From assembly GCA_028015205.1 (NCBI GenBank), contig CM051516.1:29440593-29504592 (forward strand): 64,000 nucleotides of DNA, read 5' to 3'. A program made the translations under genes and the position numbers. The notes under the pieces are model-generated. The model saw only the letters and a list, made by a program, of their open reading frames with translations. It ran no database searches and had not been told where the DNA came from. Shown one piece after another: positions 38,101-61,705 of the stretch. Origin of the DNA: Mytilisepta virgata (lineage: Eukaryota > Mollusca > Bivalvia > Mytilida > Mytilidae). Positions within the stretch are counted from its first letter, which is position 1. Every line of letters begins with the position of its first letter.

Positions 38101-41100
38101 TTGATATTATTAAATTTACCTGTATAGGTATTTTTGTTTATTTCTTGTTTGGCGAGAATTTATGAGATTTGGAAATTTTTTGAAAAAATGGTTGACGATG
38201 CCACTGCCATGTCTCTGAAAGAGAAAACTCCAGCTAAAAAAGGTATTAAATCTGCCGAAAAACTGGACACAAAGTTAAGGAAATCGTCAACAAGAGACGA
38301 TAAAAATAAATTATTGGTTGGTAAGAGTGTTTCGGCCGACGTGACTATTGAAACTGTGTACGACGGCCCTGCTTTAGATAGACAAGCCAATGTTGATATT
38401 GAACATTCTCTCCCGGCTGGCGTGGCCGGTCCCACAAGTTCTGTCTCAAAGCCTTTTCTTCTTTGTGTCCCAGTTGAAATATGATTTGTATCACTCAGAA
38501 CTGTAAATTGCTAATAAAATCTTTAATTTATATAAATACTTTAAAATATTTCTCAAAGTGATAGGTACTCAAAACAGACCTGAATAGCTAAGCCCTCACT
38601 TATCAAATATGCAAGATCTATCCTTGCTGATGAATAATGTTGCAGCTTACTATGTCCACTGATGCTTTGAGTTATAGTTTTGAAATGTTTAAAAATCAAA
38701 ATATGAAATTTTTGGGTAAAAAGTGGCATTATTATGTCTTTGTCAGTTAAAGTTATTAAATAAATATGACACATTGTTGTTTGCTCAAAGTCAAGTCCTT
38801 GAATACACCGATGTAGTGTTATTGACATTTTAGCACAGATTTTACTAAGCTGGTGCTAAAAGCTATTGAGATGCAGGAATAAAAAGTAAACAATTTGATT
38901 GGAGTTGTTATGTTGAAAGTGAAATTCTGAAATTAATTTCCAAATAATTGAAGAAGGAATAAAAGACAATATTCATATACAGTGACAGTAGTATCTTCTC
39001 ATATTTCTTTCAGAAGCAGCAAAAATTGCCAAATTAGCACAGATATCTCAACAAGCCAAGCCATCACAACCAACAACAACTATAACACAACAAAATAGTG
39101 ACAATGCATGGTTTGCCTTTGATAACCAGCCAACCACGACATCAAAATCAGATGATATATGGTCAGCTGCTTTTAGTGAGGCTGCAGTTTCCTCTGCTGG
39201 ATCACAGGATATATGGGCGAGTTCATTTCCTAGTCAATCAAAAGGTAATTGTTTACAGTATCACAATGGAGACAATCATTCGAAACAATGTTAATAAGGG
39301 GAGATATTAATAATTTCCATAGCTCTGATGACCAGAGGGGACAATTTTGAATTATCTCCCTTTAATGACGTTTTAAAATTTTTAAAGTGAAAAATATTTT
39401 TGTCTGCATTATTTCAGATTTGCTGTTCACTGTATTGATTCAATGTAACCAGATTTCTTTGTGATATATAAAAAATGATGGGTCACATAATCTCATGAAA
39501 GTTTTGGTTATGAAAAATATCAATGTACATTGACAATGTAATATTTTTTATTAATATTTAAGCATATTTGGAATTTTGCCTCTGTGGTTTATTGAAAATC
39601 ATTTAAGGTAGTAAAAATTGGCCTCTGTTTATAGCAATCACTTGTATATTTTATATTTGCAATTTGTTTTTTGCAGAAACCATTAAAACAGATACTCCGT
39701 TGCGGACTAAGGTTCGAGCAATTTACCAGTTTGATGCAAGAAATCATGATGAATTAACACTAATGCCAGGTGATATTGTCTTGGTAAGTCTTGTTGATGT
39801 ACTTGATTAGTACAAAATGTTTCATGTGTTACCGGAGATTTTGTGGAAATAAAATATGGGGTAATAATGAATATCTTAATGACTTAAAGAAAAAAGTGGT
39901 TTAGATGTGATTGAAATAAAAGAAATTATATTTCTTAAGTTTGATTTGTTTGTTAAGAGGGGAACCGAGAAAAAAATAAAAATTAAAAACCAATTATTGG
40001 AAATTTTGATTATTTTCTTAGAATCTCAACTTGACTTCTAACAAAGCAAAAACTAATGAATGAAATATTTAGTTGTGATATGATTTATTTCAGTTATTAG
40101 CTGATCAAAATGGTGCAGAACCTGGATGGTTAGGTGGTGAGAAAGATGGAAAAAGTGGTTGGTTCCCTGAGGCATATGTAGAAAAGCTTGATTCTAGTCA
40201 AACCAATTCATTCGGGTATGTATATTACAAAATATTACTATGCAATTCTTACCATGCATTGAACAGGCCAATCTTTAAGAATTTAACAATGAAAGCTTAA
40301 TGTTTGAACGTTTGCCAGTTTACCTCTATATTAAGTCTTTTTTATGATAAATTTCAATAAATGTGGATTGAGAATAAAATATTTAGACACGTTATATCAT
40401 CAGCTTTAATGTCTTTTTAATAAAAATATATAGTACCAGTAAAATTGAACTACGGGTATTTGGATGTTAATACCTTTTACTTATAAATTTAGTGGTGCTC
40501 CTACAATGGATACTGAATATTCCACACCACAACAGGCACAAGAAGTTAGGATTACCTCCCCTACTTCTGGACATGTAAGTTACTGTTTATCCAAATTACT
40601 GCTTAGATATGAGTGACATTATTTCTTTCATGTGGATATCTGGCTACAAACTACCAGATGGAAGGAGATTATTCTGAGATATAGGTCCTTAATGGTAATT
40701 GATGTATTTAAGGTTGACAATTTAAGTGTTTAAAAGTTAATTAGTATGCCTGTGATATTGCATGCTTTTGAAATAAGACTCAAATTTCTGTTGAAAGTTT
40801 TTTTCCACAAAATTGTACAAGCTTACACTCTGAAATTCATTAAATACTTCTACGATTCAACATTTTATAATTTATGAAATCTGACATTTGAAAACTATAG
40901 ATATCATTGGTACATTGGTTATCAAATTATTATCAGTTTGGGATTAATAACATTTGCTGTCAGTAAGCTGTCTATCATAACATAAAATCATAGGTGAATT
41001 GTTTTCTGAGTGTAGAAAACTAAACTTTGATATTATAAAAAAGAAACATTGGTTAATATGTACGTGTAGTTGTTAGATGAAGCAAACTTATCTGTTTTTA

Positions 41101-47100: not shown

Positions 47101-50100
47101 AAAGAGCTTCGTTTGGGAGACATTCGAAACTGCATCCAGTTTCAATTATACTTTGTTAACATAATATTTATACTTTACATTCAGCTCTAGATCTGAAACA
47201 CCAAACACTGATGTCAATAACCAGCCAGAAGTAACACCATCACAGCCAATAACTACAGATGATACATCTCAAAACCAAGCAATTAACAGTGCATTGGCCC
47301 AGTTAAATATTGGTAGTGGCAAATCGACTCCCGTACATATTCAAAATGTAGACAGTGCCAGATCTACTCCATCTGTACTAGAAAAACAAGAAGGAGGTAT
47401 GATTGTTATGAATTTGAATTGTAACAAGTAAATATTGTGGATTGTCAACAAATTACTTTAAAATATTACACTCCAAAGGAAACTGTTTACATGTATTTAT
47501 CATCTGATTGTTAAATACTTTCAACAATTTCGACAGCTTTTCTTTGCAACATTTTTTTTACATGATTCAAAATCCACAATTAAGAATGCAGAAATGTGCC
47601 TTTTTTCCCAAATCCACAAAGATTGATGTCCACAATTTGCAGTTAGAGTTTGAGGCGACCATAGTCAATTATACCATAAAATCTAGATCACTCAAAGGTG
47701 GACAAATTTAATGCAGTGGGTATCACAAATAGCTTTTAGAGTCCTTGCCATCAAATCTTTGTTTTTTAAGAACTTTGATAACTTCAGGTTTTTTCTTGGT
47801 ACTTGAGGTATTAAAGCAACCAAAGCATGTTGATAATGAGAAAAATTATTCAGTTATCTCCCTTTTAAAGTTACGTAAGGGAACTAGTCCTGGCACTTTA
47901 CAATCTCTAATTGATTTCATGGATAGAAGGGGTAACTAATTTTTCTCATTGGAATTGAAACATGGTTTACATATTGAATAGATAATCAAATAAATACATA
48001 GATATTCAGGATTCAATTTGATTTAGCCATGCTTGAAGGATTAGAAATAAGCTCTTGACATTTTCATGGTTTTTTAGACTTGTCAGTTTCACATTTATCA
48101 ACATGTTATGCTAATATGATATTAATATGTTATTTCAGAATGTTATGTAGCAGTTTTTACATATACCTCACCAGAACCAGGTGATTTGAATTTTTCTCAG
48201 AATGAGGTCATCATGGTAACCAAAACAGATGGTGATTGGTGGACAGGGTGTATAGGAGACAGAATAGGAATATTTCCTCATAATTATGTTAAAAAAATGG
48301 ACATTCCACAGGTATGTGCATGTATTTGAATAAATTGTGTGTAAATATAATTTTTAACTAGACTACAGTGATTTTCCTTGGCAGAAAAAGAGGTGGATGG
48401 GGTATAAATCTGCATCTAAAATTATAAAAGCACATGAGATGAGTAGACAGAAAATTTTTATACGACCGCAAAATTTTTGCGGCCGTATATTGGTATGACG
48501 TTGGCATCGTCGTCGTCGTCCGAAGACATTTGGTTTTCGCACTATAACTTTAGTATAAGTTAATAGAAATCTATTAAATTTAAAGACAAGGTTTATGACC
48601 ACAAAAGGAAGGTTGGGATTGATTTTGGGAGTTTTGGTCCCAACAGTTTAAGAATAAGAATTAGGTTCCAAAAAAGGGCCCAATAAGCATTTTTCTTGTT
48701 TGGTTATTATCTTGGTGTAAGGGAGGTAATCCAAACACATTTAAAGTAAAATGTTGTGTATGATTCAATTACCTCCCTCACACTGCTTGTAAATTATGTA
48801 TAAAGAAATGTAGATTGTCTTGGGGTGATTTATAGCTGTCAGTTTATTTTTAGAAGTTACTATTAATTAATATTAATTTTGTCCATATGTCATTTTCTAT
48901 TTTAAGACTTTTATGATATATTTAAGTGGATAATTATGTTTTTAAACTCCATGAGAAATTTGAATAGGGATTATGACCATATCTTGAGGGAAAGAATTTT
49001 TTTTTTGGAAAAAGGGAAAGAGGGGGGGGGGGTAAATAAAAAACTGTGGGGGGAGGGGGGCATTTTTTTCTCATTTCAGATTTCAAAAATTAAAAAGAAA
49101 ATATCTTAAAATTTTTATTTTGCAAAACAAAGGGTGGGGATGGGGGGTACAATGATTTTATTTTGATGGGAAGGGGGGGGGGGGTCAGTACGCAACAGCA
49201 TAGTGTATTGCAAAAAAGCAAAAAAAGGGGTTAAATTTTACTTTTGGGGAGGGGGGGAGGGGTCAATTCGCAACAGCATATTGTATTGCACAAAAAGCAA
49301 AAAATTGAATATAAATTCAAATCATATGTCCAATTCTAAGTTCTTTGACTACAGTTATTCTGTGTCAGAAACCTATTATGTGTCAAATATTTAATTACAA
49401 TCCAAATTCGGACCTGTATCAAGCGTGAATATTGTGTCCATTTTTGCCCCAACTGTTCAGGGTTGGACCTCTGTGGTCGTATCCAGCTGCGCTCAGCGAA
49501 GCAATTAATTTGGAATATAATTGGAAATTTACTTTTTTGATACTTTTTGAAGGGATTGAAATGCAGCAGGAAATCAAAAAAAAATAACCAAACCAACCAA
49601 CAAAATACAAAATAAAGACTTTTTTCTCTAGTTAAAAAAAATTATCAAAATGTTTTAAGAGTAAGAAGAAAAATTTAAAGGAAAATGTCAATCATCACTT
49701 CAATAATATACATGGACTTGATTAGATTTTCTGCATACTCCAGTATGGTCATAATACTTCTTGTGTTTGATTTTAATTGGGTGAATCAGTCAGTTTAAAA
49801 GGAAGATAACTCTAGTTTGTATATGTTTAATGCATGGCATGCCTTTGTAGTGTACTAGTTTTCATAATCATATCCTTGCTTCATAGACAGTAACTTTGGT
49901 AAAACTATAACAGAATCCACTATATCACTTAATATGTTTATCTGTAATTCTTTTGTTTTATTTTTTTTTAGAAACAATTATTTATTAAATTATTTTCATT
50001 TTTTTTTTAGCTCACCTGGCCTAAAAGGCTATGTGAGCTTTTGCAATCACTTTGTGTCCGTCGTCTGTCCACATTTCACATCTTCATCTTGTTCTCTGAA

Positions 50101-53100
50101 ACCACCAAATTGAACCAAACTTGGCAGGAATGTTAATTGGATGGTTTTGTACAAATGGTATGTTTTTTGTGCCGATTGGATATTCAACATGGCTACCAGG
50201 GGCAGATAATTCATTCTGATTGGACTTATCTTCAAAGCTCTTCTTGTCAGAAACTACTGAGCCATGAATTGATTTGTTGCATGAATGATTCTTGGATGAA
50301 CCTCTACAAAATTTATGTTTTTTGTGCCGATCGGAAAATTCAAGATGGCCACTAGAGCCAGACTAATTTTTTACAAAGGTCTTCTGGTCAGAAACTACCA
50401 AGGCAATTGAAATGTTTTTGATGTGTGAATGATCATTCGATAGACCACTGCAAAATTTATGTTTTATGTGCTGATCGGAAATTCAATATGGCTGCCACAG
50501 CCAGATTTGGTTTAACATTGAACCCTATGGGAAATTTGTACAAAGGTCCTCTTGTCAGAAACTACCAAGCCAATTGAAAAATTTTTATGTAGGAACAAGC
50601 ATTGGATGAACCTCTACAAAATATATGTTTTTTGTGCTGATCAGAAATTCAAGATGGTTGCCACAACCGGACTTAGTTTAACATTGAACACTGGGAAATT
50701 AGAACAAAAGTCTTCTTGTCAGAAACTACCAAGCCAATTAAAATATTTTTATGTATGAACAAGCATTGGATGAACCTCTACAATAGCAGGGACCTCCCTG
50801 GGCTTCGCCAATGTTGCCAAATGCGATTTTTTATTCAATCTGTCGACAGTATTTTATAGTTGGCAATTTTTTTTTTTTTTTTAAATCTGTCACTTATGTG
50901 AAAACATTTTTAAATGGTGACTAAGAAACATCATTTGTAAGTTTTATATAATTATCTATGATAACTGAACAGTTTACATCAGGCCAATAAACACAGCAGG
51001 TGTTTCAACAGTAAACAAAAACAATCAATAACTCGCACGTGCTGAGATTGCGTACACTTGATTGCTCAATTGATTGACCACTCTGAGGACAATTCAATTT
51101 ATACACTGATAGTATTTATATTATCTGAATTTTTATTAGGTAATTTCATTAGTCATGAAACTAAATATGCATGCTTTTTTACACCTTTAAAAGGTGTTTA
51201 AAAGGATTATATCAAAATTTCCAATCTGCAAAGATTTTGATGTCACTTCCAGTTTAACATCAACAAACACATCTGGAACAATCAATGTTTTATTAGGCTT
51301 GCGGTCAAAATAAAGGTCATTTCAGATGAAAGTTAACTGTCATTAAAACATTTCATCAAAAATACTTTTCAGGCCATGTTATTTCAAATAGTATTGAATA
51401 AAAGAACAATCATATTTCCAAACCAGAGACTCCATGGAGCATGAATTGCTCACCTGGATTTTAGGTGACCACAACTGACAAAGCGCTTCTACATAAGATC
51501 TGTAAGGAATTCTTCCGGTGTCCAATGTTAAACTACATAAGTCCAACTGTGCCAGCTAGCTTGGATTCCCATCGGCACAAAAACATACCTTTTGTAGCAG
51601 ACATTTATCCAAGGATCTTCGTGCAACAAAAATATTTCAATTGGCTTAGTATTTTCTGACAAGAAGACCTTTCTACAAATTTCCCAACAGAGTCAAATGT
51701 AAAATTAATCTTGAATTTCAGATCGGCATAAAAAAACAAAACTATTCACGGGTTGCCCTGGCATTCAAAAACTTGTTGCCAAGAAAATCGCCAAAGCATC
51801 ATTTTTGTTGCCAGTTTCAAAATTTGTTCGCCAAGTCACCCTCCCCCTTTTGGAAACATTCTGCCATACATTATGGTTTTCATAATCTGCTATAGATTTT
51901 GAAAAAATCCTGAATAGTAGGATATGATTACACTGTATTTAATTCAAAGAAAACTTTAGTATTTTTTCCTACAAATAAATATTTACATGTTAGAACACTC
52001 AATAATGTTATTTTTCCATGATTGACCCCAGGTAGATAATTCCCTCATTGGACCAAGTTAGATAATTCACACTTAGATTGAAAGTGGACATTTATCTATT
52101 TAAACACAGAAAGTTTTCCATACTTGCATCTGAAGCAATAACAGTGAAGTCAGAAAATAATAGGAAAAAATCCATAATCTCTATGAAATATGTAATAAAC
52201 GTTTAAAATGCAATCTGGAAAATGTAAACATTTCAATATTGTGACAAAGTGGTGTAAATCTTCCTAACAGGTGTCGCCACCAAGTGTCGAGAGTCTGCTG
52301 TCAACACAAATATCCAGTATTGATTTATTGTCAGAAGGAATTAATTTTAACCCTGTCCAGTCTCATGCTGGTCCCATTACAACTCCTTATCCAACACAAA
52401 ATGAAATAACTAGTCCATCAGGAGTGATCCCAGTTGTTACTAATTCAGAAATAAAGGATACCGGAACTGGAACTTTTTTTTCTGTTGACCCCGTTGATGA
52501 CAATTTTACACAAAGTAAAATTTTCCCTGGATTTGATCAGGATCCATTTATATACCAGAACACTACTTCAGGAGATACCCAGACTGCTTCATCAGTGTCC
52601 AGTACAGATCAGTTAGATGGTAATCCCTCTGGAAATATTTATGAACAAGATTTCTTTGCAAACTTTAATGCACAGTATGGAAATGTGGATGACAGCAATG
52701 TTTCAGAAGTTTCTAAAAATATTGAATCAAAAACTGAAACAGCAACAGGAGAACTAATCCAAGGTTTAATACCAGCATCTCCAGAAGTTAATAACAATGA
52801 TAAAAATGTTCAGTCAGATAATACTAGAACAAAACAAAAAAAGTCTTTTTTGAACTTGTTTAGAAAATCACCTGGTGATAAAAAGCCCACAGTTCCTAAA
52901 CCACCTAAAGAAAAGAAAAAGAACTTGAAAATTAAAGATAAAAATGATCCCAATGAATACAAAGATATACCACAAAGTCCTGTAATAGAAAGTCCAGAGA
53001 GTGACCCAGCAGGCTTTGGAGAACTGGAAAGCCCTCTTTCTCCCTCTTCTCTGACAATTGATTTGGGATTATCCTTGAGTTCTGGTTGGGAATCGAGTGT

Positions 53101-56100
53101 AGACAACAATCAAGCCACCTTTGAACAGTTACCTGTTAGCTCATTTCCTGCATTTGTCGACAATGCTACAGTTTCTGATCAGGTATTGGATACTTCAGAT
53201 ACAATTAGTCAGGATATTCATAATGACATACAACAAATGTCATCTGATGTTTATCAGAATGAAACACTTTCCTCTGATTTGAGTTTAGTAGCTGAAAATC
53301 AGTTGTCTGAAAACAGAACTTACACAAACACTACAGTATTTCCTTCATCAGACCCAGTCCCCATAATGTCTGGCCCAGCATTAGATGTAATGCTTGATAA
53401 TGCAGGCAGTAGTGTTTTTAAAATAGAAGTAAATGAAGCAGAAAATAAATTTGCAGAAATTTCTACATCCATATCAACAGTGACTACCAATACAATTCCA
53501 AGTTGTACTGAAAGTCAGGCTGAGATGTTTGAGCCAGATTTATATGAGGAAGTCATTCCAATAACACCTCCAAAACCAGTTGAGGAAGTTCAATGTGATA
53601 TTTATGAAGATATTTCTGATCTGATTGCAAAGTGGGATAAACCTGAAATTAAAAGTCCTGAAACAAAGAGCAAGGCTAGTATTCCTGCAAGACCTCTTCC
53701 ATTGAAGAAAAGAGTGCGATTTCAGCTAGACAATGAAAACCATGACAATGATTCAGTGACTGAAACATCAGCAGATCAAAAGGATATGCCTCCACTTCCT
53801 CCCAGAAGGCCAGAAAGGAGGAGTCAGAATAGTAAAGAGTTGTCTTCCATGGAAAAGGATTTATATGCAGATGTTAGAAAAGTTGAAAATCAAGACGATT
53901 TGTCATTTGACATTCCTGATGAAGAAGCACCACCTGTAATACCTGAGAGAAACAAAAAGGCCAAAAATTACAAAGAAAAGAAAACCAAAGAAAAACCAGA
54001 AAAGAAAAAAGAAGCAAAAATAGAGAAAAATGCTGACTTGTCTACAGTTTCAGATGATACAAACAGTCCTGTACCAAAAGGTAGAAAGAAGAAAAACAAA
54101 GAAAAGTCAAAATCAGTTGAAAAATTAACAACTCTTGAAGAAACAAAGGTCAAGGGACTAAACAAATCATTCTGGCCATGGAAAAAGAAAAATGAATTAG
54201 GTTCAATTGATATTTCTAAATCATGTGAAGGCTTAGGCCAGTCTGTATTTTATGAAGAACCAGTTTCTGGTAAACCAGATCAGATAGAAATGACTGGGGA
54301 TTTTTATGAACCAGTTGGAAGTCCGAAGATGGCTTTAACACCCAGTGGTAATTTATATCTTGAACTTCCCACTGATTCTAACCTTCCAGTTTTTGAACCT
54401 TTCGTGGAAAGCAGTCTTGCGGAACCTGATGGAACACAAACATATGATGACTTTCTGGGAGTGGGTGGAGGAGATTCACCAGGTCTGACAAGGAAGAAGA
54501 TAACAGAGTCGGACAATATAGTTGTGGAACAGTCCATCAATTCAGAATTGATAGAACCAGATGGAACACAAACTTATGATGACTTTCTTGGAATTGGTAG
54601 TAAAGACTCACCTGATTTGCCAAGGAAGAATGTGCCAAAATATGCAAATGTGAAACCATCGCTTAATTCTGAATTGAGTGAACCAGAAGGAACACAAACT
54701 TATGATGATTTCTTGGGAATAGACAGACAAGAATCATCACCTATTCTTCGAAGGTTGAATGACAACAAAACATCAGAAGGGGGATATGGTTCTTCAGAAA
54801 TGGCAGTGTCGGGCACAGGGATTTCTGATATTGAAACCATGAATTCATCTTTAAATATGACACAGGACTTTGAACCAGGCCTGTATGATGATCTTTCCAC
54901 TTCTGAAGGACAACTTGTCAGTTCAGATAGTCATATTGAGACAGACATGGCTTCAGGTTCTTTAATCAATAGAAACACAAATGTCATCAGTTTTGATTTG
55001 GGTTCTGCTGACGAAGCTGTTAATAACATAAAAAAATTGAGTATAACTGATCCCACTGACCTTATAAGTGATTATGAAAACTTGTATGAAGAAGTAGGAT
55101 CACCACTGAGAAAGAAAATGGGAATGGAAACTGCTATTGGTGATCAGGTTGATGGTGAAAAACAGCTCTCAGAAAATGTAAAAATGTGGAATGATCACAA
55201 TTCCATATCATTAGAAAGTAGTCATGGGACTGTTCTTGAAGAAAAGGTACCAGCAGGTGAAGTAAATCCAGAGTCAAAAGAAGTACAAAAAGAATATGAC
55301 TCCACTTGTTCAACGTCCAACCAGTCAACAGCTGTTATACCAGGGCTAGAGGTATCAGATTCTATTTTCACCTCCATTGCATTGCAATCACATTTCCAAT
55401 TTGCTAGTCGCACAACCAGAATTCATCATAACCATCATATGCGTTGCATCCTGCTAACTCCTTTGGCTTGAGCAGTCCTATGTGTCACTTTTACCAAGGA
55501 CTAATGGAGTTAATTGTGTTTTTTCAGGGTAGCATGTGGCTGAATTAATATGTGTTGTTTTGCTTGTTCTTGGGGCCAGCATGAGTATTACAGTTTCAGT
55601 ACATTCACAGAGTTATGCAGTTCATTATTAAGACTTAAACCTGCCAAATAGTATTAGTTAACATCAGGAATTTTCAACTTAATTGATGTTGATTGATTTA
55701 TATTTCAAAACTATTTTTGTCATTGTTTTTTGCCTGCTTCATTTAAAATGAAGACAAGATGTAGGTATGCTTTTTTAGCCGTTGCAACTTTGTGGTAAAA
55801 TTTTAAAATAAGCTTCATTTCTCATTAACATTGCATTATTGAGTAGTCATATTTGGTCCAAACATTTACCAGAGAGTGAGCAATTCAGCTTTTAATTCAT
55901 GGGTAAGTGACATAGTGATAAGCTCACTTTATTAGAGCATCCATCTTTGGTGCAGACATTCTTAAGGAGATGATGTTCATCTCATTTTCATAGATCACTG
56001 ACATTGTTATGTTAATATTAATGGCATTATAATGAGAGGGGCTTCGTCTTTTGGTAACTATACCACACAGAGCACTTTTAGTCAGGGAGTATACATATAA

Positions 56101-59100
56101 GCTCAAAACACTTGATGTTTTTTGATAAATTTTTGTCTGTTAGCACATTACACAAAGGCAGGCAAGACATATTTATGTGTCAACTTTTGTTTTAAAATAT
56201 GGAGAGAAATTATTGAAAAATAGTAGAAAAATCACCATATTTAACTGATTTTTATGGGATATACTGTATTATATTTTGTTGTTAAATATTTTTTGATTAT
56301 AATAAATGATTTGTAAATAATCTCAGTGTAGATTGTGTTTATATTATAAACATTTACAGGGCAGGGTTTATAAAATTCATACGTATGATTTGGTCATTGC
56401 TATTTCCTGTTTGCTGAAGTAAGTTTTGTCCAATCTGATTTGATTTTTCAGCATAACATTAAAATGATATAGATATAACTGTGAATTTATTATTTTCTGT
56501 GATTTTATTTTTCATTGTTAACCTTTTCTGCTTTCTGTTTTATTATTTGTGTACTTATTTCATTGTTTTTGAACTTCAAAAAAAGATATAAGAATGAAAT
56601 GTTAAGAGCAAGCTAAATCCATGACCTAATTTCACACTGCTTTGAAATTTTTGAGCTTTGTCTTACTGTTATATATATATATATATATATATATTCTGAA
56701 GTTGCACACATACAAAGTTAACATAGTATAATTTTAAAATCTTATTTTAATTATCCAAAAATTACAAAATATATGTTTATTGCAGATTTAATTATCACAT
56801 AGATTAACATTTTGGGGCCTGTTATTTTTATTCATCCAGTTCAGAAAGCTGTGAATTTCAATATTTTCAAATTCTTTCCTTGGCCCACCCTTATGTAAAA
56901 TCAAATGGTTCTTTGTTATTTTATTATATGGCAACATGGGTTGTCAATTTGTAAATATTGAAGATACTCATAATTATTTTATTATGTATGCTTTATTTGC
57001 ACACATTAAATTATATTTGAATAATTTCATACACTGTAGACAATTTTATTGTTTACTATCAGTGAATAAACATCATTATAAAAGTGCTAGTTTTCAAATT
57101 TTGCAAGGCCAAAACAAAAAATAATTGAGATTTTAAGATAATAACACAGAAAATAGTGCAAGTATAAAAGCTAATATTTGTTTAATTTTTATGAGGACAG
57201 TTATATTTGAAATATATTCTTTTGGCCTTTAAGTAAACAGTTTTGCTGGTATCATATATAAATGTTCACTTAGTACAGTTCTGTATATTTCAGAAATCCC
57301 AACAACCATCTCAAAAGACAGGAACTGTTAAAAAACCAGGTAGTTACAATTTTTTGTCACATAAAAATTAAATACAGTTGTTTTAAAAAATAAACGTTAT
57401 TGAAAACGTTCCTGTTTTATGAAATTTTTAGCTTTTTAAAGCTTTTGTTGTTGAATAATTTTAAATATTAATGAATGAATTATTGAACTGAGGAAGAAAA
57501 TGTGGGAAAGAAAAATGAACTGTTTGCTTTTGTTTTCTGTTTCCTCATAAACACAAAATAGAAATTCTATAATTTAAAAGTTTTTATTTATTGTATTAAA
57601 AAGAATATTTTATTGAACTTGTAACATTAGATTTTATTACAGCATTTTATTACATTTCTTCCCTTTAAATTCAATTACAGAGATAGCATCAGTTATAGCT
57701 CCTTACACTGCCACAGGTCCTGAACAGTTATCTCTTCAACCTGGTCAGGTCATCCAGGTTCGCAAGAAAAGTCCCAGTGGCTGGTGGGAAGGAGAATTAC
57801 AGGTAATTTTATATAAAACAATTTTTTTTTTTTTGGTCTGAATGTGGAATTATTTTGATTTAGTTGTAAAACCCTTCCTACTTGTTTAAAGAAATTTCCA
57901 TCAGAATGTACCCGTTCATTTTGATTTTTTTTAGCATTCAAAAAAGATGATCCCTTTGCCTTTTTTTATTTTAGTTAAAATCTCAGAAAAAAAGGAAATA
58001 TTGTGAGGATTTAAAAAAAAAGTTCTTTCTGATAAATACATGTATCATGTTAAACTTGTATGATTGAATTTTATTTGATATTTAAAAGCTACTAAAATAA
58101 AGACTTGTCATGAAATGTTGATTCAGGTAAGATAATATTTCATTTTATTTTCCTTTCAGGCTAGAGGTCAAAAGAAGAAAATTGGATGGTTTCCAGCCAA
58201 CTATGTAAAACTTCTTGGAGGATCTCGTTCAACTCCCGATAGTTCAAAATCAACACCTGACAATACTCTACAGAGACCAGTACAAGATCGTTTGACACCT
58301 ACTCCTGCTGCCACAGCAGTAAGTTTGTCATGCTATTAAGAGAATGTTAGAAGTTCAATAATTTAGACCCTGTTGGCTGGAGGTTTGAGTATTCTTTCAT
58401 TGGTATATCAACCACAATTCATTTCTATTCTCTGTCTTTTGTACTGTTTGAGTTTAATGTTTGGTTTTTTTTGGGGGTCTTTAATTACCATCACTAGATG
58501 CCTCACTAATAGGTTCAAAATCTGCACTTTGAAGGTCAAAGTTAGAACTTTAATTTTAAATCTGCATACCTTATATCCATGTTTACAAGTTGATTTGGCC
58601 CTTTAAAGAACTTCTTGGAGTTAAAAGATGATACTGTATATGATTGATTACCACAAGTAGAAGATTTGTTACAAATATGTTCGAGTCATCTTTGAAATAG
58701 GTTGAAGTCTGATCCTTGAAAGTCACGGTCACAAACATCTATGGTAACTTACCCATTTACAGTCAGTGACCAAAACTGTGCCTTCCCTGTATCCTTAAAT
58801 ATCACTTTGACATTGATAATGAATTGTTGATTGTTTACCGCCATTGTCAAATATGTTACATGTAAAGTAAACTATATTTGCAACCATCAAATCTACTACT
58901 GATGTTGGCAAATATAAAAGTGTTATCTCTTAATGACAAAAATGAATTAATTGCATTAATTAATCTCACAATATTTTCTGTAAACGAAGATTTCCAATAA
59001 AAATACATGTTCATATTATTGTGAATGAATCCTGGCTTAATTTTAAACTAGGCAAAAATGCTGACCTGGATTTATGTTATTTCTGCTGGACACATTATCA

Positions 59101-61705
59101 TCCTTATTTAGATACAATTTTAATTCCTAGAGAATTAAAACAAAAAATAACCAAGTGTGTGGCTTTATTCAGCTTGGGTCAAAACAAGAATCTGATATAA
59201 TTTTTACTCAAAGCGAGCAGCATTTGAACTGAAATATACAAAACAATTGAAGCTTGCTACATATCAAGAATACTAGTTTCTCTCATTACAAGGGGTTGAA
59301 GACAGCTTTTGCCAGTGTAAGAAACCCATGGTGAATATCCTTGTCTTGCATCACATGACACAGAACTTCACGTCACAGTATATTTTGCTGACATCATAAT
59401 GTAAAAACTTAAGGAAAACAAACTTGTCCTGATTTAACAAAAATATTCAAAAAGAAATTACTTCTAAATAGACAACTACTACCTCGTGTCTGACAGAACT
59501 ATGTGACTTCACAGTTGAATTCCCCTATGTATGAATGGTCGTTATAATCTGCATATAATTACTTTAATTTTAACTTGTTGTTTCAGTCTGGTACATCTCC
59601 TTCAGTAACACCACAACCTCAACAGTCATATGGTATGTATAACAGTGGATAGAATTCAATTGTTAAACAAGAGATCCTTGTACCCATTGGTACCCATTCA
59701 CCTGTTTACACCAGTTTCTGTGAAAATTTTAGTAAAAATAGTTTTTATTACTGTTCATCAAAGTCTCAACTGTGAAATCATACTATTCTCAATGACCTAA
59801 AAACATATTTTCATGAAATGTTATCATCAGAAGCTAGTATTAGGGAAAATAATCAGAGTAAAAGGTTAAAGGGGAATTTTACAAAGCAGTAAAAATGTTA
59901 CCAATACTTATCTTAGCCTTTGTATAAGTATGAGTCTTTCATTATACTGTGGAAGTAAGAGATTATAGGGAAAAGAACTTACAAAAAATATTCTTTTACT
60001 TTTTCTGAATGAAAAAAAAACGTACATAAGATGTGCTGAATTTATACAAAATTATTTAGTGGTATATATCTGATTTGAATTTTTCAGTTGAACAGGTGAT
60101 AGCAGTGTACCCATATAATGCACAGCGTGAAGATGAATTAACTTTTCATAAAGATTCCGTTATAAATGTTTTAAACAAAGAAGATGATAATTGGTGGAAA
60201 GGAGAAGTGAACGGACAAGTCGGAATGTTTCCATCAAATTACGTAGGACCATTAGTCAAGTCACCGCCTCAAGAAAATACATGTGAGTAGCTAAAATAAA
60301 GCTTTTAATATTGGTTTCGGGTTTTAAAAATAGATTTTGTTTTCTTTAGCTTTTTTTAAGAACTTTAGAAATATTTGAGGCCCTAATGCTGTGTTTTATA
60401 CTTTATCATTGCAGTTTATTGCCATTTCTAAGTGATGGAATATTGAGGCCAATAATAATTTTTTGGATAATCTCATTAATCCTACCTAAAACTTTCATTG
60501 AAACCCAATTTTATTTAATGGAAATTGATGGAAACCATTAATTTGTATATAATTTTCATTTTATGGGAATATATTTCTTCGTAAAAAAATTATTTACAAA
60601 AAATATTTTCCTGCCTTTCCAACATGTCAAGTCATCAGATCCTCCTTGAACCAAATTATTTTTTTTTCTGAGCCCATATTCTGAAGCTGGAATTTTGCAT
60701 CTTATTCTGATAAGATTTCTTTATTAGATAACTTTAGGTTGAAAACATTTAGTTAAAGTGGCAAGTCATATGAGATGAAATAGACCACAATTTTGAAGCA
60801 TGAACAAATGACATTAAATTTATCACCTAAAATATAAAACTTTTTTTTTTCTTCTGTAAATGCCTGTTTTAAGTGGGAGATGACCCATGGAAGATTTTTG
60901 CATCTATCTCCCACTGTTGTGATGTCCAATCAGAATTCTTTTGTCATACCTTTCGACCAAGCAGGCCATATGTTATTTAACTTCATAGCTCAATAAATTT
61001 ATATAGGTACAGGAAACCTAAAACTGAAGTATTTACGGAAGAAATAGATATTTATACTCATTCAAATATGAAGAACTGGGAAATCTTCAACTCGTTTTTA
61101 AAATTCAGCCTCTTTCCCGTCGTTCTGCTGCGCTCCACTCATGGAAAGATGTGAATTTTAAAATCTTAAGATTTTCTAGTCTTCACTTTGAACTCGTGTA
61201 AGAACCTAAAGGCCCATGTGAGTTATTGTCCTCACTTGGCATCTGTCATTTGTTGTCCTTCATTTTCTGGTGTAAACTTTCCTTTAAAAATCTTCTCCTT
61301 AATCCACTGGAAAAATTGAAACCATATTTTGGTGGAATGGTCTATTGGTGGTCCTACTGTAAAAGTTTATCATGAGGTCGAAACCTACAACCAATATGGT
61401 TACTGTTACCAAAAATAAAAAAATTTCAAATTTTTTTAAAAATAATTTTCAACCTTTAAACCATTTGAACACTGGACCAATTGGAACCAAACTTTTCCTG
61501 TGATCCCCTTGAAAATTGTGTGTGGGGATGCAGACATCCAACCAATATGGCTATTGTTTCTAAAAAGGAAAAAAAATAAAACTAAAGTTCCAACTGAGCA
61601 ATACAGACTACTGGGAGCTTCTAGTTTCTTAATGTTTTTGCCTCTTCCTGTGTTGTCTTTCATTTTCTTTCTCTAACATGCTTACCTCCCTTTATATTTT
61701 CAGAA
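21192..61705 (+). CDS. ITSN1: Intersectin (EH-SH3 endocytic scaffold), short-isoform coding span
   Basis: Thirty-two coding exons join in a single frame of 6711 nt (2236 residues). They are: 21192-21207, 22122-22211, 22506-22569, 22987-23171, 23968-24069, 24385-24463, 24788-24888, 26582-26645, 29233-29414, 31181-31294, 32960-33110, 34013-34124, 34523-34672, 35512-35652, 35925-36012, 36478-36617, 37363-37472, 37825-37853, 39014-39244, 39677-39783, 40094-40215, 40493-40574, 43262-43408, 44477-44544, 47185-47396, 48139-48311, 52271-55351, 57294-57339, 57681-57802, 58160-58318, 59587-59632 and 60088-60282. The TAA is completed at 61704-61705. Domain order EH-EH-coiled coil-five SH3 is that of intersectins. 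Without exon 27 the product would be 1209 residues, close to human ITSN1-S (1220). It acts at clathrin-coated pits and in Cdc42/Ras signalling. Orthology to ITSN1 versus ITSN2 cannot be separated in a mollusc. Confidence 0.96.
21240..21480 (+). repeat. Decayed tRNA-derived SINE
   Basis: 'GGTGGTTCATTATTACTACC...GATCTGAGGTTGTGGGTTAAATC' has A/B-box-like spacing, followed by 'CGTGTTGCAGGTCAATGGTTCTC', similar to the body of the 44-kb SINE. It begins just after the exon 1 donor. Confidence 0.45.
23230..23350 (+). repeat. SINE 3' fragment
   Basis: 'GTGGGTATTCCAGCTGCCTCCGCCAATAAAAACTGGCC' corresponds to the SINE body seen at 43.9-44.0 kb, in the opposite genomic orientation. Confidence 0.5.
23968..24463 (+). 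CDS. ITSN1: Intersectin exons 5-6: Met/Pro-rich inter-EH linker
   Basis: The exons encode [24 protein letters not shown] sequence (residues about 119-178), low-complexity and rich in Met, Pro, Ala and Gly, ending GSFGPAQA. The vertebrate equivalent is a Pro/Val/Ala-rich linker. It is probably disordered. Confidence 0.9.
24788..29414 (+). CDS. ITSN1: Intersectin exons 7-9: EH domain 2
   Basis: Exon 7 reads [22 protein letters not shown] (human [22 protein letters not shown]). Exon 8 reads [20 protein letters not shown]. Exon 9 carries the EF-hand [20 protein letters not shown] and [10 protein letters not shown]. The domain spans about residues 190-276. Intron phases match those around EH1 (TG|G inside the Trp codon in both), which suggests the two EH domains arose by exon-set duplication. 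Confidence 0.95.
24922..25275. mobile_element. Mutator-like MITE with about 96-bp inverted repeats
   Basis: A 354-bp element has terminal inverted repeats of about 96 bp starting CAATCTAATTAAAAACCG and differing at only a few positions. It is flanked by a perfect 9-bp direct repeat GACTTCAGT (24913-24921 and 25276-25284). Long TIRs plus a 9-bp target duplication are the signature of Mutator-like elements. No transposase is encoded. Confidence 0.88.
26030..26437 (+). repeat. Family A repeat, short complete copy
   Basis: The head hairpin is AGCTCACCTGGCC/GGCCATGTGAGCT. The tail is AGGTGAGCGATACAGGCTC, a short loop, then GAGCCTCTTGTTT. About 0.4 kb, so only one or two core units. It lies 145 bp upstream of exon 8. 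Confidence 0.8.
26685..28810 (+). repeat. Family B hairpin-headed repeat, long copy
   Basis: The head is the perfect palindrome ATACGACCGCAAA/TTTGCGGTCGTAT (26685-26713). A core of three 160-bp units follows ('GGTTTTCGCAC' type starts at 26763, 26923 and 27083), then diverged sequence with G-rich tracts (28111-28165, 28363-28376). It ends TGCGGTCGTATCTAGCTGCG-CCCAGCGGAGC, which repeats the head stem. It starts 40 bp after exon 8. A shorter copy is at 48459-49504. Confidence 0.82.
29591..30723. mobile_element. TIR element of 1.13 kb with internal palindromes
   Basis: The ends are inverted copies of AGCTTCAGGGCTCACCA. The left part has GC-rich 'gggcgattagggcgattaagtcgcc' repeats and an unsupported 61-codon frame (29639-29824). 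The right part has several inverted motifs around 'gatgagtcctgggactgggactcatc' and 'gagggagactctgagtctccctg'. No transposase is seen. A target duplication is not clear. Confidence 0.6.
31181..31294 (+). CDS. ITSN1: Intersectin exon 10: acidic/Pro linker
   Basis: It encodes [20 protein letters not shown] then [18 protein letters not shown], between EH2 and the coiled coil. [11 protein letters not shown] is reminiscent of DAFxxLL-type clathrin or adaptor-binding motifs, but this is only suggestive. Confidence 0.9.
31620..31780. repeat. Decayed relative of the foldback at 6994-7156
   Basis: 'gaggttttagcgagcatgtttaaaataaaaaattcaacc' and the trailing 'tttgtttctcccatt' match the core and right end of the element in the CRYZL1 intron. 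Confidence 0.5.
32093..32104 (+). CDS. ITSN1: Candidate 12-nt microexon of intersectin
   Basis: TTTTTTACAG|ATGATTTTGAAG|GTATAG lies between exons 10 and 11. Being 12 nt in phase 1-1, it would insert DDFE without changing the frame ([14 protein letters not shown]). Splice sites are good. Its use cannot be proven from sequence. Confidence 0.4.
32960..37853 (+). CDS. ITSN1: Intersectin exons 11-18: coiled-coil (KLERQ) region
   Basis: The region starts with the conserved [20 protein letters not shown] (human VTFEDKKRENFERG). It runs through highly charged E/R/Q/K heptads (residues 333-640). Exon 13 gives [20 protein letters not shown], matching ELERQRQLEWERNRRQELL. Later exons include [16 protein letters not shown] and [20 protein letters not shown] (human EVEKETRSKLQEIDIFNNQL). 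Exon 18 is only 29 nt. In vertebrates this segment mediates self-association and Eps15 binding. It contains no Pro or Gly breaks over long stretches. Confidence 0.95.
33111..34012. other. Intersectin intron, nothing recognised
   Basis: No repeat with clear ends. A slightly GC-richer patch (about 33330-33420) has no supported ORF. Confidence 0.4.
35120..35272. mobile_element. Decayed MITE, 'GGAGATAACA' family (copy 1)
   Basis: GAGATAACAGTATTGTATTTT at the left is the inverse of the right end (AATACTGTTATCTCC). The better-preserved copy is at 37164-37331. Confidence 0.6.
36302..36457. mobile_element. Foldback MITE abutting the exon 16 acceptor
   Basis: Arms of about 70 bp (GAGAAACCAGAGTGAGTTAT...TAACCAATGTAGGTAAGGGA) are inverted with few mismatches around a short loop. 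The right arm ends about 20 bases before exon 16 (36478), so it occupies the zone where the branch point should lie. Confidence 0.78.
37164..37331. mobile_element. MITE, 'GGAGATAACA' family (copy 2)
   Basis: GGAGATAACACTATTGTATT...TTATTTGACGGCATCAATTG at the left inverts to CAATTGATGCCGTCAGATAA...TGTTATCTCC at the right, with arms of about 65 bp. No coding sequence. Confidence 0.8.
38134..38484 (+). CDS. Unrecognised intronic ORF, about 98-116 residues
   Basis: An open frame lies in the intron between exons 18 and 19. It has a likely internal start at 38188 ([20 protein letters not shown]) and a Lys/Ser-rich middle ([15 protein letters not shown]). It ends FLLCVPVEI and TGA at 38482-38484, with AATAAA 25-30 nt later. 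Base composition is more GC-rich and more codon-like than the surrounding intron. It has no introns of its own. It could be a retrocopy, part of a mobile element or an alternative 3' exon. I cannot name a family. Confidence 0.35.
   Translation: MFISCLARIYEIWKFFEKMVDDATAMSLKEKTPAKKGIKSAEKLDTKLRKSSTRDDKNKLLVGKSVSADVTIETVYDGPALDRQANVDIEHSLPAGVAGPTSSVSKPFLLCVPVEI
39014..39244 (+). CDS. ITSN1: Intersectin exon 19: DxW/F-rich linker
   Basis: Residues 640-716: [20 protein letters not shown], then [32 protein letters not shown] and [12 protein letters not shown]. Repeated DIW/DNAWFAF motifs resemble the acidic-Trp/Phe motifs that bind AP2 or clathrin; human ITSN1 has similar NNWADF/DNWDAW motifs, but located after SH3-A. 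Confidence 0.92.
39677..40574 (+). CDS. ITSN1: Intersectin exons 20-22: SH3-A and linker
   Basis: [20 protein letters not shown] then [20 protein letters not shown] and [16 protein letters not shown] form a complete SH3 fold: ALYDY-type start, E-L acidic loop, WLGGE with binding Trp, and GWFP/Y end. It matches human SH3-A ([20 protein letters not shown]...GEPGWLGG), including its unusual long loop. SH3-A binds dynamin, SOS and N-WASP in vertebrates. Exon 22 is a Ser/Thr/Pro linker. Confidence 0.96.
41097..42720 (+). repeat. Family A repeat with homogenised tandem core (complete)
   Basis: The head hairpin AGCTCACCTGACC/GGTCAAGTGAGCT (41099-41130) is followed by CGTCGTCCGTCGTCGTCCGG and the tandem core (41206-42470). 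A unique trailing part follows, with the tail GGTGAGCGACACAGGCTC then TTGAGAGCCTCTAG (hairpin followed by CTAG). Several TTTAGC/TTTTTT bases flank the element. Head, core and hairpin tail are like the non-autonomous, Helitron-like 'pearl' class described in bivalves; this classification is inference. Confidence 0.85.
41206..42470 (+). repeat. 166-bp tandem repeat, 7 full units plus a partial
   Basis: AGAGAACCAC recurs at 41206, 41372, 41538, 41704, 41870, 42036, 42202 and 42368, each exactly 166 bp apart, with very few substitutions. Seven unit boundaries carry CATCCAAGATGGCCGCCAG. The near identity implies recent expansion or gene conversion, unlike the degenerate cores of other family A copies in this window. 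Confidence 0.95.
43262..44544 (+). CDS. ITSN1: Intersectin exons 23-24: SH3-B
   Basis: [40 protein letters not shown] and NGQ then [14 protein letters not shown] are nearly identical to human SH3-B ([19 protein letters not shown]...[11 protein letters not shown]). Residues about 826-880. The intron position after NGQ is conserved in style with SH3-D. Confidence 0.97.
43895..44158 (-). repeat. tRNA-derived SINE, full length
   Basis: The minus strand begins GGCCTTGGTGGCCGAGTGGT (A box TGGCCGAGTGG), has AGTTCGAATCTC (B box) and a type II-like long variable region. A non-tRNA body follows ('CCGGGTACTTCGGCTTCC', 'CCAATAAAAACTGGCCGCC'), then the tail AACTAAACAAACAAAC. Fragments of the same family are at 2.9, 9.1, 21.3 and 23.3 kb. 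Confidence 0.82.
45098..47123. repeat. Family E element with hairpin head and matching tail, hosting family C
   Basis: The left end is the hairpin GTCTCCCAAACGAAGTTTGG-AGAC. The right end CTTCGTTTGGGAGACAT is the inverse of its first half. The middle is interrupted by the family C array (45451-46860). Gly/CG-rich 'CTTTCCGGGCGCG' and poly(TTA) follow the head. Confidence 0.65.
45451..46860 (+). repeat. Family C element: two heads and about nine units of about 135-150 bp
   Basis: The head TATACCCCGCCA...TGGCGAGGTATTATG occurs at 45451 and again at 46391, each followed by CCCTCCATTTCGTTGTCTTA. Units containing ATCATTTGGTACCATAGGGG recur at about 45620, 45755, 45890, 46039, 46177, 46311, 46564, 46699 and 46835. 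Length differences come mainly from the G tract (up to about 23 G at 45915-45937). Confidence 0.82.
47185..47396 (+). CDS. ITSN1: Intersectin exon 25: Ser/Thr/Gln linker
   Basis: [20 protein letters not shown] then [20 protein letters not shown] lies between SH3-B and SH3-C (residues about 893-962). It has repeated S/T-P sites. In human this linker is shorter and Ser/Pro-rich. Confidence 0.93.
48139..48311 (+). CDS. ITSN1: Intersectin exon 26: SH3-C
   Basis: [40 protein letters not shown] and [18 protein letters not shown] form an entire SH3 in one exon, residues 963-1020. Human SH3-C is [20 protein letters not shown]...[20 protein letters not shown]. The WW pair and FPxNY are intact. The exon ends in phase 0, permitting the in-frame insert that follows. 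Confidence 0.97.
48459..49504 (+). repeat. Family B repeat, shorter copy
   Basis: Head TACGACCGCAAAA/TTTTGCGGCCGTA, one core unit (GGTTTTCGCACTATAAC at 48531), G-rich tracts (49021-49032, 49165-49182) and tail GGTCGTATCCAGCTGCGC. It lacks the extra units of the 26.7-kb copy. Confidence 0.8.
50005..50790 (+). repeat. Family A repeat, degenerate core
   Basis: Head AGCTCACCTGGCC/GGCTATGTGAGCT, then about four diverged units with 'TCTTCTTGTCAGAAACTACC' and 'CTACAAAATTTATGTTTTTTG'. It breaks off near 50790 without the tail hairpin. Confidence 0.75.
51436..51745 (-). repeat. Family A fragment, inverted
   Basis: Read on the minus strand it gives 'GTCTTCTTGTCAGAAAATAC', 'CCAATTGAAATATTTTTG' and the tail CAGGTGAGCAATTCATGC-TCC. 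With 50005-50790 it forms a large inverted pair about 0.65 kb apart. Confidence 0.65.
52271..55351 (+). CDS. ITSN1: Intersectin exon 27: giant exon encoding a 1027-residue disordered insert
   Basis: The acceptor CTTCCTAACAG precedes an uninterrupted 3081-nt frame (phase 0 to phase 0) that ends at GGGCTAGAG|GTATCA. No globular domain is recognised. It is rich in Ser, Asp, Glu, Asn and Lys. Visible elements include FDQDPFIY (DPF, AP2-binding type; about exon residue 90), Lys-rich blocks (about 190-235, 560-595, 600-645) and [11 protein letters not shown] (507-517, class II SH3 ligand). Acidic tyrosine motifs include LYEEVIP 425, IYEDIS 445, LYADV 532, FYEEPV 661, FYEPVG 679, LYLEL 696, LYDDL 872, DYENLYEEV 935/939, and TYDDFLG three times (725, 769, 811). 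It lies between SH3-C and SH3-D (protein residues 1021-2047). The frame continues to a TGA at 55469-55471 if the donor is not used. The insert could bind SH2, SH3 or AP2 partners, possibly including its own SH3 domains. Confidence 0.93.
55352..57293 (+). other. Intron 27 with a possible alternative 3' end
   Basis: If the donor at 55352 is skipped, 39 further residues lead to TGA at 55469. A candidate polyadenylation site follows: AATAAA at 56301-56306 with GT-rich sequence downstream (about 56327-56342). The rest is AT-rich, with an (AT)12 tract at 56671-56694. No other gene is seen. Confidence 0.4.
56671..56694. repeat. (AT)12 microsatellite
   Basis: An uninterrupted AT dinucleotide run in the intron after the giant exon. 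Confidence 0.95.
57294..58318 (+). CDS. ITSN1: Intersectin exons 28-30: SH3-D
   Basis: Exon 28 gives [15 protein letters not shown] (human GKTGSLGKKP). Exons 29-30 give [40 protein letters not shown] and [20 protein letters not shown], almost identical to human SH3-D. Residues about 2063-2125. An Arg/Ser/Thr/Pro linker follows ([20 protein letters not shown]). The return to conserved sequence right after exon 27 shows that the giant exon is an in-frame insertion, not a gene fusion. Confidence 0.97.
58319..59586. other. Intersectin intron, nothing recognised
   Basis: AT-rich sequence without a repeat of defined ends or a supported ORF. Confidence 0.4.
59587..60290 (+). CDS. ITSN1: Intersectin exons 31-32: SH3-E
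   Basis: Exon 31 is a short [15 protein letters not shown] linker. Exon 32 gives [40 protein letters not shown] and [20 protein letters not shown], matching human [20 protein letters not shown]...[21 protein letters not shown]. Donor ACAT|GTGAGT lies at 60283. Reading through it gives TGT GAG TAG (stop 60288-60290, C-terminus QENTCE). Splicing to 61704 gives TAA (C-terminus QENT). Splicing to distant DH-PH-C2 exons would make a long isoform, which would lie outside this window. Confidence 0.95.
60301..61204. other. Final intron, nothing recognised
   Basis: AT-rich sequence without recognised ORF or repeat ends. AATAAA at 60295-60300 lies five bases after the read-through stop. Confidence 0.35.
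61205..61627 (+). repeat. Family A repeat, decayed copy
   Basis: 'CCTAAAGGCCCATGTGAGTTATTGTCCTCACTTGG' corresponds to the head's second arm. The tail 'GAGCAATACAGACTACTGGGAGCTTCTAG' matches the hairpin-CTAG end of the 41.1-kb copy. Confidence 0.65.

Follow-up and report, generated by a model that had tools for sequence, protein, structure and literature searches.

Does the intersectin gene of the mussel Mytilisepta virgata carry a single giant coding exon in the middle of its SH3 array, and, if so, what might such an exon add to a protein that is central to organising endocytosis, both clathrin-mediated and synaptic, and whose usual description consists of EH domains, a coiled coil and the SH3 array itself? 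The stretch of DNA analysed, hereafter the window, comprises 64,000 nucleotides of contig CM051516.1 (assembly GCA_028015205.1, positions 29,440,593 to 29,504,592 of the forward strand) and holds most of one intersectin gene from a 1.03-Gb genome in 109 contigs. Between the exons for SH3-C and SH3-D lies an open frame of 3,081 nt (52271..55351; this and all other exons and motifs located below are on the + strand), which a preliminary description of the window had taken for a true in-frame coding exon that inserts a lineage-specific domain into intersectin. We find that the frame is indeed a coding exon of intersectin, in frame with its neighbours, that its product is predicted to be unfolded, and that it is likely the longest example seen of a molluscan cassette.

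The frame at 52271-55351 contains 0 stops in 1,027 codons (3081 = 3 x 1027), and the stop-free frame enclosing it (52268-55468, 1,067 codons) is the sole stop-free one in the window to reach 150 codons; in 60 sequences of 64 kb simulated with a first-order Markov model of matching composition, the longest such frame had 169 codons. Scored with a codon model trained on 771 codons from 18 other exons of the intersectin gene, with the giant exon left out, the frame gave +0.34 bits per codon, the other five frames of the exon gave -0.13 or less, and introns gave -0.28 or less in all 396 overlapping frame-windows. Upstream, the SH3-C exon (48139..48311), which is 79% identical to residues 978-1035 of intersectin-1 from Mytilus californianus (P0004), ends in phase 0 after ...NYVKKMDIPQ. 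The exon that follows the giant exon, a small exon of 46 nt at 57294..57339 (KSQQPSQKTGTVKKP), starts in phase 0, and it is to the counterpart of this exon that SH3-C is joined straight in the Mytilus forms that skip the insert. Usable splice sites flank the exon, an acceptor at 52271 and a donor after 55351, but both are weak, each scoring above 4 of the 21 scored sites of the gene. Of three phase-0 donors tested towards the 3' end (55246, 55261, 55351), the last is the best. The open codons, the codon score, the phases and a relative in Mytilus edulis together bear out the claim of a coding exon. The accompanying claim of matching phase-0 boundaries in the flanking exons stands for SH3-C and for the next exon, though SH3-D itself starts only at 57681.

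When compared with the 1.03-Gb genome, the exon protein matched one place only and is single-copy. A protein search with the insert as query, in which the 7,987 candidates sharing most words (proteins of about 878-2793 residues) were scored, gave one match at E<=1, the M. edulis intersectin P0002, to which the exon is identical at 66 of 128 positions. A mobile-element or duplicated origin of the exon was rejected on the single genome match together with the protein search, which among the candidates scored yielded M. edulis only. In P0002 the stretch homologous to the insert is joined directly to the KSQQ exon, and then to SH3-D.

This record also bears on whether the giant frame is an alternative first or last exon, or harbours an internal start, such that it yields a truncated intersectin and not a cassette insert. 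The P0002 model starts within the insert, the frame of M. virgata runs beyond its weak donor to a stop after 55468, and AATAAA or ATTAAA occurs at 56301, 56458, 57005 and 57065, all of which would suit a truncated product. We nonetheless regard such a product as quite improbable, given that 13 other molluscan proteins are annotated with an insert plus both SH3-C and SH3-D, that the M. edulis insert continues into the KSQQ exon, and that the exon is phase-neutral with splice sites at both ends.

The 13 proteins come from a comparison of the SH3-C/SH3-D junction across animals, for which we used the best 120 of 983 and the best 120 of 697 proteins together with P0002, making 214 distinct representatives of 90% clusters. 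Animals were assigned to groups by their commonly accepted classification, and the set divides into 154 proteins that either carry a vertebrate name or are unlabelled (one of these is from octopus) and 60 others. The gap between SH3-C and SH3-D is 11 residues in 148/154 of the former, in agreement with the short vertebrate linker given in the preliminary description. Among the 60 others listed, 13 have a gap of 216-562 residues, and all 13 are bivalve or gastropod; P0006, P0021, P0035 and P0132, which were mis-anchored in the gap or linker, and P0002, which is without SH3-C, all fall outside this count. In bivalves, the long gaps are 216 residues in Solemya, 301 in Ruditapes, 515 in Dreissena, 530 in Pecten (from a record marked low quality) and 562 in Mya. 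The gastropod gaps are 227 in Gigantopelta, 242 in Biomphalaria, 252 in Bulinus, 283 in Physella, 313 in Haliotis asinina, 325 in H. cracherodii, 342 in Babylonia and 535 in Patella. The gap of M. virgata would be about 1,040 residues, the longest seen; all of these figures include the constitutive linker, which measures 5-45 residues in species with a skipping form.

For five species, annotation records give both an including and a skipping form, which differ by one block: 529 residues in Mya, 470 in Dreissena, 308 in Haliotis asinina, 278 in Physella and 337 in Babylonia. The block starts 6 residues past the NYV of SH3-C in these five species and 7 residues past it in M. virgata; insert phase was determined for the gene in the window, and the other species were compared as proteins. 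Together, the 13 long-gap proteins and the five species with both forms suggest that the SH3-C/SH3-D insert is likely a molluscan cassette, of which that of M. virgata is the longest seen. The description of the insert as a lineage-specific addition is therefore right in one respect, as its sequence was detected in M. edulis only, and too narrow in another, as 13 other listed proteins from bivalves or gastropods show a gap of 216-562 residues at this site.

A number of the species listed have no large insert. Amongst bivalves, the gap is 35-51 residues in oysters and pearl oyster, 40 in Mactra, 10 in Sinanodonta and 15-17 in the other scallops; it is 5 or 64 in octopus and 46 in chiton. Amongst the other animals listed it is 12 in Lottia, 18 in Littorina, 19 in Pomacea, 30 in Lingula, 33 and 113 in nemerteans and 99 in a sawfly. 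Small variations occur at the junction as well: the SH3-C/SH3-D linker is 12 or 71 residues in octopus P0026/P0028 and P0031, and Babylonia X4 (P0122) has an alternative 13-residue piece at the same place, so that the junction appears to take small optional pieces too. We also observed that the Patella insert (P0103) contains RA(Q/K)SADI(L/F) three times and that the linker of the nemertean Lineus (P0022) contains RTQSAD, possibly an element shared outside bivalves.

The distribution raises the question of whether there is one molluscan cassette at all, or whether insertions into the same intron occurred independently in mytilids, heterodonts, scallops and gastropods. Attempts to extend the homology of the giant exon beyond Mytilus by sequence, using pairwise shuffles and HHalign, failed. 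Some pairs from the other groups score weakly (Mya/Haliotis z 4.9, Mya/Gigantopelta z 4.7), their best HHalign probability being 20% (Pecten/pond snails), and the oyster, pearl oyster, chiton, Sinanodonta, Lottia and Littorina proteins listed are without a large insert, although these may be skipping forms only. As homology of the giant exon to the other groups is not detectable by these methods, a common origin is argued from position and motif class: the junction is the same, 6-7 residues past the SH3-C NYV, in every pair compared, inserts are found in both bivalves and gastropods, Solemya among them, and motif classes are shared between groups that also show the weak scores above. With these points on both sides, independent insertion seems to us rather doubtful.

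What kind of polypeptide does the giant exon encode? The preliminary description called it a domain, and here we disagree. Nothing in Pfam passed the cut-off with the giant exon as query (best E 0.095), a search of the PDB gave no match at E up to 1, and AlphaFold2 run on the exon sequence alone, where a single-sequence model is weak evidence by itself, placed all 1,027 residues below 70 in predicted local distance difference test (pLDDT). A folded domain is rejected on these three results. Pfam searches of two whole insert-bearing proteins (P0037, P0130) likewise recovered known intersectin domains only, with none in the insert. Simple disorder indices were indecisive, since they did not distinguish the inserts from the SH3-D control; the disorder call therefore rests on the absent family match, the AlphaFold2 result and composition, the molluscan inserts being acidic and rich in serine and threonine. 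Overall, the product of the giant exon is predicted to be unfolded.

To describe the motifs carried by these inserts, we counted well-known short linear patterns (DP[FW], YxxPhi, PxxPx[KR] and Src-type tyrosine) and measured their excess over 2,000 composition shuffles in 15 inserts. The giant exon contains 12 acidic tyrosine motifs, Y[DEA][DENP][VILFP], against 0.4 expected, and 7 Src-type tyrosines against 0.13 expected, an excess of the kind that characterises an SH2-docking region. It also has 6 PxxPx[KR] matches against 0.6 expected and 4 TQT against 0.19 expected. Several TQT motifs in a predicted disordered chain are what is expected of a multivalent LC8 partner, and LC8 binding is accordingly a prediction. 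Acidic tyrosines are in excess in 6 of the 15 inserts (12 in the window, 4 in M. edulis, 4 in Gigantopelta, 2 in Patella and 1 in each Haliotis) and absent from the other 9. TQT occurs twice in M. edulis, and singly and without significance in Ruditapes and H. cracherodii.

The distribution of DP[FW] is different. This motif is in excess in 9 of the 15 inserts, with 17 copies in Mya, 15 in Pecten, 5 in Dreissena, 4 in Ruditapes, 3 in Patella and 2 each in Babylonia, both Haliotis and Physella, and is not in excess in those of the window, Solemya, Bulinus, Gigantopelta, Biomphalaria and M. edulis; some of the motif excesses reported here are single occurrences. The copies are located in the linker in Mya (17/17), Pecten (15/16) and Dreissena (5/5). 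In non-molluscs DP[FW] was found outside the insert (3 in Patiria, 1 in Lingula, 1 in Neodiprion), and neither DP[FW] nor acidic tyrosine was found in three vertebrate ITSN1 proteins or in the exon-skipping P0004 of M. californianus. Motif content thus differs between lineages, with DPF arrays in three clams and a scallop and acidic tyrosine, SH3-ligand and TQT motifs in M. virgata. The lineage-specific domain of the preliminary description is better read as a cassette, predicted to be disordered, that occupies a site common to bivalves and gastropods and has an unusual code rich in tyrosine.

Within the giant exon, the acidic tyrosine motifs include YEEV (Y425, 53543..53554), followed by YEDI at 53603 and YADV at 53864. 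YEEP (Y661, 54251..54262), YEPV at 54305 and YLEL at 54356 form a further set, of which M. edulis retains all three tyrosines in either of the two alignments made, and a paired site, YENLYEEV (Y935 and Y939, 55073..55096), is not kept in M. edulis in the one alignment that covers it. The proline-rich PPLPPRRPERR (53789..53821) is SH3-ligand-like and contributes to the PxxPx[KR] excess. One TQT (SGDTQTASS, 52577..52585) lies outside the repeats described below and is the fourth of its kind. Two basic-aromatic patches, KQKKSFLNLFRK (52832..52867) and KSFWPWKKK (54164..54190), were read from the translation; they are mutually similar and may represent membrane or calmodulin contacts.

From these observations we propose that the giant exon is likely optional, a cassette whose inclusion would separate SH3-C from SH3-D by a predicted disordered, motif-crowded docking strip about 1,000 residues long, a reading whose chances we judge to be evenly balanced. 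The short form would then be an SH3-only scaffold, to which the long form would add docking sites of its own. In M. virgata these would mainly be Src-type tyrosines (DLYEEV, DIYEDI, DLYADV, TYDDF) that may be phosphorylated by a kinase and then read by SH2 domains. Adjacent PxxP sites could engage SH3 domains, whether those of partner proteins or intersectin's own, and the four TQT motifs might pair two chains by binding an LC8 dimer. The DPF motifs of clams and scallop would give this position another role, the recruitment of AP-2 and FCHO. Splicing could in this way switch the partners of the scaffold and also part the SH3-A/B/C block from SH3-D/E. More tentatively, it is possible that an ancient motif cartridge, switched by splicing, is common to the intersectins of bivalves and gastropods and that its code has been rewritten between lineages, with Eps15-type DPF motifs (AP-2/FCHO) in clams and scallops and Src/SH2, SH3 and LC8 sites in the mussel giant exon. 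Were this so, one exon would decide whether an endocytic scaffold recruits coat or signalling proteins. A cassette adding hundreds to about 1,000 residues of motif-rich disorder inside the SH3 array would constitute an isoform axis, and a natural experiment in which a disordered region may have one binding code replaced by another without changing its position in the scaffold.

The closest parallels are the insert-bearing molluscan Intersectin-1 proteins (Mya P0037, Dreissena P0041, Pecten P0024, Haliotis P0130/P0131, Patella P0103), which have the same gene, the same junction and a large acidic insert rich in serine and threonine. Unlike these inserts, the giant exon is about twice the length of the longest, tyrosine-rich in place of DPF-rich, and without detectable shared sequence. 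Multi-tyrosine Src substrates such as p130Cas and ADAP combine, within a disordered region, arrays of acidic tyrosine motifs with neighbouring proline-rich SH3 ligands, and the giant exon resembles them in this layout of motifs, on which the likeness is based. In the ankyrins, giant neuronal exons add a disordered segment to a scaffold as a very large single exon, and the giant exon resembles them in architecture, the genes being unrelated.

In Eps15, a spaced DPF triad is reported to bind FCHO1/2 and single DPFs AP-2 (PMC4921775). The clam and scallop inserts, as DPF arrays, resemble the C-terminal DPF region of Eps15/Eps15R, and Mya has a close triad (DPFKNSDDPFIGSDDPF; in Eps15, DPFVGSDPFKDDPF). 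The spacing of the triad, which matters in Eps15, is 4 and 4 in Mya and 3 and 2 in Eps15; moreover, the array of Eps15 is C-terminal whereas that of intersectin is inside the SH3 array, and the giant exon has a single DPF. Vertebrate ITSN2 is reported to have gained interdomain and linker tyrosines that become phosphorylated and are then recognised by SH2 domains (PMC3723668), much as tyrosine sites appear gained in the linker studied here; in ITSN2, however, the sites were established by experiment, while in M. virgata they are predicted and concentrated in one giant exon. The linker between SH3-A and SH3-B of ITSN1 is reportedly bound by AP-2 (PMC3645719). TQT is described as the anchor of LC8-binding motifs, arrays of which bind LC8 (PMC10046861). 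In vertebrate ITSN1, the DH domain is autoinhibited by SH3-E (PMC2892021), and as the insert lies upstream of SH3-E this autoinhibition need not be affected. Data on SH3CD of fly Dap160 (PMC8321554) were set aside as irrelevant to the junction, since fly SH3-C/D appear from the primer ends to correspond to SH3-D/E here. In the listed titles and abstract openings of the intersectin literature, we did not find an SH3-C/SH3-D insert isoform described.

Alignment columns of the tyrosine motif Y[^P].[LMVIFP] are identical between M. virgata and M. edulis in 25/32 cases, against 67/194 elsewhere (p = 4e-6). In addition, a unit of about 44 residues occurs three times inside the exon, the copies being in frame with one another and spaced by 132 and 126 nt (an 88-nt repeat family, D2), with cores at 54422..54460 (EPDGTQTYDDFLG), 54554..54592 (EPDGTQTYDDFLG) and 54680..54718 (EPEGTQTYDDFLG). 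When these 13-codon cores, EP[D/E]GTQTYDDFLG, are compared with one another, the proportion of synonymous differences (pS) is 0.33-0.56 and that of nonsynonymous differences (pN) 0-0.066; in the 15 codons directly upstream of the cores, pN is 0.36-0.64. That the core differences are mostly synonymous points to constraint on the protein motif. These results, together with motif enrichment over composition-matched shuffles, would be unexpected if the exon, while real and translated, encoded mainly a passive, fast-drifting disordered spacer that adds length between SH3-A/B/C and SH3-D/E and in which most motifs are incidental. We consider such a spacer unlikely, even though it would account for the lack of a fold in the AlphaFold2 model, for a gap length that varies from 216 to about 1,040 residues, and for the lack of detectable conservation between the giant exon and the other molluscan inserts.

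Several results weigh against the docking-strip reading itself. The giant exon shows no homology to the other molluscan inserts (z <=2.7 in pairwise shuffles, HHalign probability <=2.1%), and the search of 7,987 scored candidates with the insert yielded no species besides M. edulis. As the P0002 model starts within the insert, the junction of SH3-C with the insert was seen in no Mytilus record, and the proteins listed from M. californianus and M. galloprovincialis (n=4, representatives of 90% clusters) all skip the exon, as does P0021, an unlabelled, mussel-like protein from a contig of 3,704 bases. The preliminary description had named transcripts that always skip the exon as one observation that would count against it; skipping is what these five records show, while P0002 includes the insert, and the Mytilus skipping forms and the sole including (partial) model belong to different species. 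The preference for tyrosine motifs weakens to p = 0.0024 with a looser gap penalty and, under that penalty, to 0.034 when the repeat cores are excluded, and of the aligned tyrosines M. edulis keeps 5/9, or 6/10 with the looser penalty. Gene conversion among the repeat copies could contribute to their likeness. The shuffle p-values are uncorrected for the number of motifs tried, and every partner assignment is a prediction from motif matching. Finally, DPF is not enriched in the giant exon (1 against 0.3 expected), by which a DPF/AP-2 code was rejected as a property of its own, and the exon has no match to NPF, FxDxF, WxxF or a clathrin box; the AP-2/FCHO role is therefore not transferable to it.

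The remainder of the window conforms to intersectin. In a tblastn search with P0004, collinear matches ran from the EH domains at 22127 to SH3-E at 60281, with EH domains, a coiled coil and five SH3 domains ordered as in P0004. The same search placed the first SH3-D exon at 57681..57802, the second at 58160..58318 and the SH3-E exon at 60088..60282, where the match ends at P0004 residue 1224; exons matching the DH/PH part of P0004 lie downstream of the window (L010, L011). The SH3-D region matched PDB chain 6gbu_B, Intersectin-1, with an E of 1.1e-30. Over the SH3-D to SH3-E part, the closest named relatives among the matches listed are Mytilus, at 80-83% identity, and oysters and pearl oyster are at 70% or less.

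Three minor features of the locus were also observed. The exon before SH3-A (39014-39244) contains the WxxF motif WFAF and two WxxxF motifs (WSAAF, WASSF), which recall what we take to be AP-2-binding sites. An intronic open frame of 118 codons (38128-38481), outside the intersectin model, contains MVDDATAMSLKEKTPAKKGIKSAEKLD. Lastly, the intron 5' of the giant exon contains a diverged repeat array (50118-50811 and 51628-51711) with a spacing of 144-166 nt, one arm of which has an inverted copy downstream; the array looks like a dispersed element.

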